NCBI RefSeq assembly: GCF_016900315.1
Contig: NZ_JACSNQ010000011.1
Coordinates: forward strand, 1 to 64,000
Direction of reading: 5' to 3'
Length of the DNA stretch: 64,000 nt
Source: Olsenella profusa
GTDB taxonomy: Bacteria > Actinomycetota > Coriobacteriia > Coriobacteriales > Atopobiaceae
How positions within the stretch are numbered: the stretch's first letter is position 1; every line of letters starts with the position of its first letter. Under the pieces are notes generated by a model. The model was not told the DNA's origin. It saw nothing but the letters and a program-made list of their open reading frames with translations, and did not search any database. This document shows positions 48,988-50,904 of the stretch, one piece after another. A program made the translations under genes and the position numbers.

Positions 48988-49050
48988 GCGCAAGGGGCGC
49001 AGGCCGCCGCGCAAGGGGCGCAGGCCGCCGTGCAAGGGGCGCAGGCCGCC
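48988..49050. repeat. 21-bp tandem repeat, three units
   Basis: The unit (GCGCAAGGGGCGCAGGCC then GCC) occurs at 48988, 49009 and 49030, the third with one substitution. Diverged continuation lies to about 49090. It directly follows family B copy 3. Confidence 0.85.
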
Positions 49051-49122
49051 GTGCGTCGCGCAGGAGCCGCTGCGCGTCCGGGAGCCGCCGCGCGTCCCGC
49101 GTCCTTCTCGCCGTCCGGCCGT

Positions 49123-49152
49123 TTGACTTTGCGGGCGCGGCTTCGCTAGCAT
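49123..49152 (+). promoter_or_regulatory. Promoter of the MATE leader
   Basis: -35 TTGACT (49123-49128), an 18-base spacer, and -10 TAGCAT (49147-49152). Transcription would begin near 49159, giving a leader of about 185 bases before the MATE start. Confidence 0.65.
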
Positions 49153-49158
49153 GGGGTC

Positions 49159-49294
49159 AAGCGGCCGTGGCCGCAAATTGAAGAGACTCACCGGAGGGTC
49201 GTGCGCCGCAGCGCACAGGGAGGCCAGGGCCTCTGGACCGGAGAAGGTGTCGGGTGCGCCCGGTTGTCGAGAGACGATCGGGCGCGCCTTTTTT
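49159..49294 (+). ncRNA. Structured leader with terminator, riboswitch-like
   Basis: The leader folds on paper into a hairpin GCGGCC/GGCCGC (49161-49174), then a three-way junction closed by GGTC (49197) and GACC (49236) with arms GTGCGC/GCGCAC (49201-49216) and GAGGCC/GGCCTC (49220-49233), and finally an intrinsic terminator: GGTGCGCCCG (49253) with CGGGCGCGCC (49279-49288) followed by six T. This is the layout of a transcription-attenuating riboswitch. It precedes a MATE efflux gene, a target of several riboswitch classes, including guanidine classes. I cannot match it to a known consensus by eye. Confidence 0.55.
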
Positions 49295-49343: not shown

Positions 49344-50335
49344 ATGGACTCGCGCACGCTCTACCTGGGGACGCCCACGCGGCGCCTCTTCTTCATGGCC
49401 GCCGTGCCGGGCGCGGTGAGCATGCTCGCCTCGTCGCTGTGGCAGACGCTCGACGGCGTGTTCGTGGGCCAGTTCGTGGGCGCCACCGCGTTTGCTGCCA
49501 TCAACCTCGCGATGCCGTTCGTGATCGTGAACTTTGCCCTGGCCGACCTCATCGGCGTGGGCTCGGCGGTGCCGATCTCGGTGGCGCTCGGCCGCGGCCG
49601 GCGCGACGAGGCGAACAGCGTCTTCACCTGCGCGACGATCCTTATCGTGCTCACCGGGCTCGTCACGGGCGCGGCGATGTACCTCGGCGCCCCGACACTC
49701 ATGTCCCTCATGGGCGCGAGCGGCGAGTTTGCGGAGCTCGCAGTGGGCTACCTGCGCGTCTACGCGCTCTTCTCGCCGCTCTCCTCGCTGCTCTACGCGG
49801 TCGACAACTTCCTGCGCATCAGCGGCTACATCCGCGGCAGCATGGCGCTCAACGTGGGTATGTCCGCTCTCAGCATGTCGCTCGAGCTGCTGCTCCTGGC
49901 GGGCCTGGGGTGGGACACGCGCGGGTGCGCTCGCTCGCGGGGTGCGTGGCGATGTCGGTCTGCAGCGTCATCGGCTACGTGCCGTTCCTGCGCGGGCGCG
50001 CCACGCTGCGCCTCTGCCGGCCTCGGTTCCGTGCCCGCCTGGTGCGTCAGATCGCCGCGTGCGGCAGCCCCACCTTCCTCAACAACGTGGCGGGCCGCGT
50101 GACCTCGATCGTCATGAACGCGATCCTCGTGCGCACCGGCGGCGAGGTTGCGGTGTCGGTCTACGGCGTGCTCATGTTCGTCGACGGCTTCGTGCAGCCG
50201 CTGCTCTACGGCATGTGCGACTCGCTGCAGCCCGCGGTGGGCGTGAACTGGGGCGCGCGCCGCCACGCGCGGGTGCGCTCGCTCGCGCGCCACTCGTTTG
50301 CGGCTGCGGCGGCGACTGCCACTGCGAGAAGTGGG
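49344..50335 (+). pseudogene. MATE family efflux transporter, frameshifted and truncated
   Basis: The frame from ATG 49344 (GGAGGAGAAGG upstream) gives a clear MATE N-terminal half: TPTRRLFFMAAVPGAVSMLASSLWQTLDGVFVGQFVG and onward to about residue 190. Near 49905 the reading moves to another frame, where SVIGYVPFLRG, SPTFLNNVAGRVTSIVMN and GMCDSLQPAVGVNWGARR continue the family. After about 50300 likeness ends and repeat sequence begins, so roughly 100 C-terminal residues are missing. Both lesions suggest an inactive gene. MATE proteins normally expel drugs or small cations using ion gradients. Confidence 0.88.
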
Positions 50336-50725: not shown

Positions 50726-50861
50726 GGCTGGGCGAGAAGGGCAACGGGGCGAGAAGGACGGCTGGGCGAGAAGGGCAACGGGGCGAGAAGGACGGCTGGG
50801 CGAGAAGGGCAACGGGGCGATAAGGACGCGCTGGCGAGAAGGACAACGGGGCGACAAGGAC
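50726..50861. repeat. Family D: 34-bp tandem repeat, four units
   Basis: Units start at 50726, 50760, 50794 and 50828. Each contains two copies of the dispersed word: GGCGAGAAGGGCAACG and GGGCGAGAAGGAC. Units 1 and 2 are identical, unit 3 differs by one base, unit 4 by several. The array lies between the MATE remnant and the proton ATPase gene. Confidence 0.9.
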
Positions 50862-50904
50862 AACCGCGCCGCGAGCGCACGTCGGGCCCGCATCGCGTCG
50901 TCCG

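Follow-up and report, generated by a model that had tools for sequence, protein, structure and literature searches.

A conserved RNA leader ahead of a broken MATE gene in Olsenella profusa belongs to a candidate riboswitch family linked to detoxification genes

According to the portions of the reports covered, guanidine-IV riboswitches (mepA motif, GGAM-1) are made of a pair of hairpins that a pseudoknot connects, the second hairpin being the terminator (PMC9788692, PMC11611296). Their commonest target is sugE, and MATE and GNAT genes are also among the genes that they control. A variant, Gd4v, is described as almost identical in structure, with more than 50% of its examples preceding transaminases; it is enriched in the gut, has GNAT and MATE targets and is presumed to be an ON switch for an unknown ligand (PMC9788692, in the portions covered). 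Further riboswitch candidates come from a survey of 50 genomes, such as the aspC motif found before aminotransferases. Like the leader described below, these candidates are uncharacterised and some carry terminators; the portions of the survey covered hold no motif preceding MATE or drug-exporter genes (PMC11109978).

The stretch of DNA analysed here (64,000 nt, hereafter the window) contains a leader that an earlier note had read, from the sequence, as a transcription-attenuating riboswitch upstream of a broken MATE gene, possibly of a guanidine class such as the mepA type. Features of the locus are listed in Table 1. The promoter that the note had placed at 49123 and the terminator ending in six T were both found, and transcription would start at about position 49159. 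Promoter sites of the TTGACT/TAGCAT type number 2 in a 3-kb stretch, as against 0.1 expected. The MATE gene is indeed disrupted: homology to an intact relative (L026, 455 amino acids) extends from 49374 to 49862 in one frame and from 49931 to 50299 in another, and stops at residue 314 of the 455. GC-rich short repeats were seen by eye 5' of the promoter (48993-49056, AAGGGGCGCAGGCCGCC units) and 3' of the pseudogene (50728-50862, GGGCGAGAAGGGCAACGGGGCGAGAAGGA-like units).

Table 1. Positions of the leader elements and of the MATE pseudogene in the window.
Feature	Positions	Strand	Basis
Sigma-70-like promoter: TTGACT 49123-49128, spacer 18 nt, TAGCAT 49147-49152	49123-49152	+	
5' hairpin GCGGCCGTGGCCGC, not part of the core that the family conserves, absent from models R2/R3	49161-49174	+	sequence
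Copy of the conserved RNA family (whole R3 match)	49186-49267	+	R3 search of the whole genome: 73.7 bits, E 1.1e-15
P1, 5' strand CACC; partner GGTG 49246-49249	49189-49192	+	alignment A3
Internal loop, 5' side GGAG; the search pattern required these letters, which do not vary in A3	49193-49196	+	
P2, 5' strand GGTC; partner GACC 49236-49239	49197-49200	+	alignment A3
P3 hairpin, loop CGCA (family: CGNA)	49201-49216	+	five P3 pairs with compensatory changes
P3b local hairpin, an optional and variable element of the family	49220-49233	+	judged on window sequence alone
Internal loop, 3' side GGAGAA	49240-49245	+	
P4 mini-hairpin CGGG-TGCG-CCCG, candidate antiterminator	49251-49262	+	R/Y covariation
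Intrinsic terminator, stem 49252-49289, six T 49289-49294	49252-49294	+	17 pairs, loop GAGA
MATE pseudogene; reading frame interrupted in the interval 49862-49931	49344-50299	+	homology to intact L026

Folding of the segment 49159-49294 against shuffled sequences yielded a z-score of -4.56. The portion from 49159 to 49264 alone gave -0.70, and the terminator accounts for nearly all of the signal. Since the z-score belongs to the terminator, folding of this single sequence leaves the upstream part unproven; it is the comparison with other copies that proves it. The three-way junction envisaged in the note does not correspond to the minimum-energy fold of the window, the energy model favouring a different upstream arrangement. 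It is upheld, however, by the fold that covariation supports (see below), where P2, P3 and the local P3b hairpin, the latter drawn from the window sequence, are set as a three-way junction. The window copy forms 4 of 4 pairs in P1, 4 of 5 in P2, 6 of 6 in P3 and 4 of 4 in P4, and the 5' arm of its terminator holds nearly all of P4 (49251-49262, as against 49252-49289).

To assemble the family, the whole leader was used in a DNA search among 60 relatives, which returned mostly short matches. Among the loci examined (L002, L003, L004, L005, L008, L013 and L019), only L003 and L004, the leaders of an MFS gene and of a MATE gene respectively, are members; they have in common the motif CACC-GGAGG ... 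CGGANAAG-GUGUC-GGG. A model built on 11 sequences (R1) found further members in the family and order, leading to a strict DNA pattern. In a collection comprising one genome per species (84,980 species), this pattern occurs in at least 118 loci, whose titles designate mostly gut or rumen Oscillospiraceae, other Clostridia and Erysipelotrichaceae, along with some Bacteroidales and Coriobacteria; habitats were judged from the titles of the matches listed. The matches listed (119, in 118 loci) were freed of two loci attributed to chance (L077 and L132). Alignment A3 (n = 115) was made from 111 non-identical, uncut copies plus the window, L069, L070 and L073, and model R3 from 60 non-Coriobacterial copies that were hand-picked to limit near-duplicates. 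When the window's whole genome was searched with R3, the best match after the leader itself scored 15.9 bits (E 0.66). Within the order to which the window belongs, R3 matches at least 18 of 392 genomes and at least 16 of 123 genera; in the loci read, the RNA lies ahead of MATE genes and of genes that, from their sequence, we take to be GNAT-like and Bcr/CflA-like MFS genes. The RNA spans about 65 to 95 nt throughout the family, whose existence can be considered established. The window's genus contains one more member (L235, G019, contig C39, positions 83-147; 63.2 bits), with GGAAGG for GGAGG. The strict pattern matched once in 2.9 million viral contigs, within a coding frame, which was taken as chance. 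The plasmid search also gave one match, in Selenomonas ruminantium plasmid pSRC2 (L243, 2501-2593): this RNA copy, 80% identical, is found near genes for a phenolic acid decarboxylase and a PadR regulator, and no gene directly follows it in the incomplete plasmid table.

Alignment A3 establishes a common fold. It supports P1 (4 pairs), an internal loop (GGAG / RGANAA, where R and N are variable), P2 (5 pairs), P3 (5 pairs, CGNA loop) and P4 (4 pairs, loop NGMG). Many letters of the core were fixed by the search pattern and thus provide no independent evidence; P3, nearly all of P2 and the R-Y pairing within P4 were left free. P3b, being variable, was excluded from the counted structure. Over the resulting 18 base pairs (2067 cells, n = 115), 97.0% of the cells are paired versus 81.4% in shuffled alignments. 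The covariation score is 0.509 versus 0.200, and cells changed on both sides number 359 versus 105.9, values that 0 of 500 shuffles reach in either case; structures slid along the alignment score 0.084 at most. Pairs showing at least one double change (11 of 18) are not more frequent than shuffling gives (203 of 500 shuffles), so the case for covariation rests on pairing, score and double-change cells. At the R/Y pair of P4, the 115 copies have AU (62), GC (43) or GU (10), and never AC. De novo prediction with RNAalifold returned the same helices plus two extra pairs. Altogether, the alignment reveals a conserved structure with compensatory changes that spans several phyla.

Attenuators that depend on the ribosome often control drug-resistance genes, and the GGAGG of the core resembles a Shine-Dalgarno sequence. 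The leader might thus be an attenuator under the control of a leader peptide, a ribosome or an RNA-binding protein, with no aptamer for a small molecule, and the trigger could be a protein or the ribosome. We regard such an arrangement as rather unlikely. The P3 sequence that follows GGAGG varies freely while its pairs are kept, and a single protein partner is made less likely by the presence of the RNA in several phyla. Inspection by eye revealed no common start codon, and a leader peptide was set aside on this ground.

Genes downstream of the RNA were classified by Pfam using the 101 ORFs that start no more than 130 nt away (the remaining 16 matches have no ORF or a farther one). Among the matches listed, GNAT (PF00583) accounts for 40 ORFs, MatE for 26 (NCBIfam MATE models also give 26), ABC_membrane for 8, and MFS_1 and Cytidylate_kin2 for 5 each, 19 Pfam families being represented in all. 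The leader is positioned, together with an expression platform, ahead of non-homologous genes of one theme. A search for a solved structure of one of the downstream GNAT proteins found none. In all five cytidylate-kinase-like loci (L099, L108, L122, L149 and L151, two of them nearly identical), the kinase-like gene lies between the RNA and a gene which, by sequence likeness, encodes a MATE protein.

The window has no match in Rfam 15 at the gathering score. At E values up to 10, the window and the leader of L139 (a typical Firmicute copy, from Sarcina) gave only unrelated sub-threshold matches; no match fell on the motif in eight member loci, and ten Coriobacterial loci had none at all apart from miRNA models elsewhere in L034. 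As concerns guanidine-IV, these negative results are to be read knowing that Rfam 15 may or may not contain this class. The note had held that a lack of Rfam matches, combined with a lack of conservation, would speak against its reading; the former is what we found, whereas the leader proved to be conserved. No description of the RNA was found in the portions of the published literature covered, which include parts of PMC8632094 and PMC8040213; unpublished or subscription work may exist. The family appears to be new, lying outside Rfam 15 and seemingly set apart from guanidine-IV and Gd4v by the text descriptions of these classes (PMC7736828, PMC9788692 and PMC11611296, in the portions covered).

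It seems highly unlikely, then, that the leader is a guanidine-IV riboswitch or a copy of the gut-enriched Gd4v variant, sensing guanidine or a derivative. Resemblances do exist: terminator control and the presence of MATE and GNAT genes among the targets, to which Gd4v adds gut enrichment and a presumed ON switch. Two sugE leaders (L193 and L196, family f2) consist of a small hairpin and a terminator, with the loop GGUAGGCCUGAGAAG in L196 and a near copy of it in L193. These leaders, presumed by analogy to be guanidine-IV examples, have loop letters reminiscent of the internal loop in the new family (GGAGG...GAGAAG); however, R3 finds no match in either of them at E values up to 10. Moreover, as far as the covered descriptions go, guanidine-IV consists of two pseudoknotted hairpins of which the terminator is the second, whereas the new family has another domain order, in which P1-P2-P3 form a domain of their own, P4 comes next and the terminator is separate, and no pseudoknotted 5' hairpin was seen. 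The question of a 5' hairpin of the guanidine-IV type is also touched by the position of -10-like hexamers (5 or 6 of 6 letters): in 72 of the 116 copies (about 26% in shuffles) their end lies 0-25 nt 5' of the core, at variable distance, leaving little space 5' of the core in many copies. Finally, no sugE and no aminotransferase (transaminase) family occurs in the 101 downstream ORFs among the 19 Pfam families of the matches listed. The guanidine classes were accordingly set aside for the window leader on the strength of Rfam, described fold and gene context, and Gd4v on its described fold and the missing transaminases, despite the similar GNAT and MATE targets and gut origin. Guanidine-III, another exporter leader, is found elsewhere in the same genome: the leader of its own sugE gene (L214, G000:C22) scores 38.5 bits (gathering 36), while the Rfam models miss the window. 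Because of this riboswitch, the organism already senses guanidine through another RNA. Thus, the reading of the locus as a transcription-attenuating, riboswitch-like leader stands, and its attribution to the guanidine/mepA class is not supported.

A terminator-like hairpin with a U-run is present in 108 of the 115 unique copies. With the terminator taken as the most stable choice, 105 of the 115 copies have a terminator stem that takes in at least 4 of the 13 nt of the P4 stretch, compared to 79 of 345 shuffled tails (use of the first U-run alone gave 99 of 115, with 78 overlapping). P4 and the terminator are therefore mutually exclusive. In L102, L130 and L169, which still keep P4, the terminator arm complements the 3' strand of the core over 14, 11 and 13 nt, respectively, adjoining the U-run. 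Complementarity of 9 nt or more to the core strand was scored in 27 of 117 copies versus 39 of 585 shuffles, many of these being U-run artefacts, and is clear in few copies. Judging from complementarity, one core is combined with two platforms, each competing with the terminator. The retention of the core across changing platforms, always in competition with the terminator, leads us to infer an ON switch. The opposite direction, with the ligand favouring the terminator, might be suggested by the fact that P4 has only four pairs. We consider an OFF switch very improbable: since the terminator has to compete with P4 and, for L102, L130 and L169, with the strand of the core as well, a stabilised core should block termination, and exporter and acetyltransferase genes would be expected to be inducible.

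Related leaders were noticed in a set of 29 fetched MATE relatives (L026-L054). Nine of these, all from genus g54 (L034, L037, L043, L044, L046, L047, L048, L052 and L054), have a shorter core, CGGAGGGUC-N-GACCGGAGAAGAC, with a hairpin upstream; in the remaining 20, among them L026 as the closest relative, no core was found by eye or with a regular expression. The g54 terminators mostly pair partly with the core strand (8 loci measured), the longest match in L047 being U-run only. As R3 gave no match at E values up to 10 in the 8 g54 loci searched, these leaders were treated as likely relatives and not as members; the g54 core is probably a derived relative of the new family.

The idea that the leader is merely an ordinary terminator within GC-rich sequence, which could appeal to an upstream part no better than shuffles and to the lack of Rfam matches, has virtually nothing left to recommend it in view of the covariation, the 73.7 bits of the R3 match (at most 15.9 elsewhere in the genome) and the strict pattern, present in a single genome out of 396 from Actinomycetota (the window's own) and, when reversed, in none.

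In conclusion, we think it likely that the leader belongs to a new family of riboswitch candidates that act as ligand-activated antitermination ON switches for detoxification genes. RNA polymerase would first make P1, the internal loop (GGAG / RGANAA) and P2-P3(-P3b); the four-pair P4 would form directly after and could stack on P1. Binding of a ligand, presumably a small molecule and perhaps a toxic compound of the gut, would stabilise this domain, so that P4 would retain the sequence of the terminator 5' arm and allow read-through into the exporter or acetyltransferase gene. It is this holding of the 5' arm by P4 that would make the leader an ON switch. In the absence of the ligand, the longer terminator hairpin containing the P4 sequence would win. 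More tentatively, the family may represent a widespread, horizontally shared class of gut riboswitches that directly senses a drug-like, dietary or host-derived toxin and activates MATE, ABC/MFS export and acetylation through at least two terminator platforms.

The note had viewed the RNA as an orphan in this genome that could be functional in relatives, and the leader is in fact conserved in relatives before intact exporters. In the window it stands ahead of a dead exporter gene and, for this reason, is probably a relic; such an RNA can survive the loss of its gene. Few RNA sensors respond to toxic compounds, and the detection of drugs, plant compounds and host amines by gut bacteria is largely an open field. 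The ligand of this family would indicate what many uncharacterised exporters and GNAT enzymes take as substrates. The compact RNA offers a testable handle on these functions and may serve as a biosensor part.
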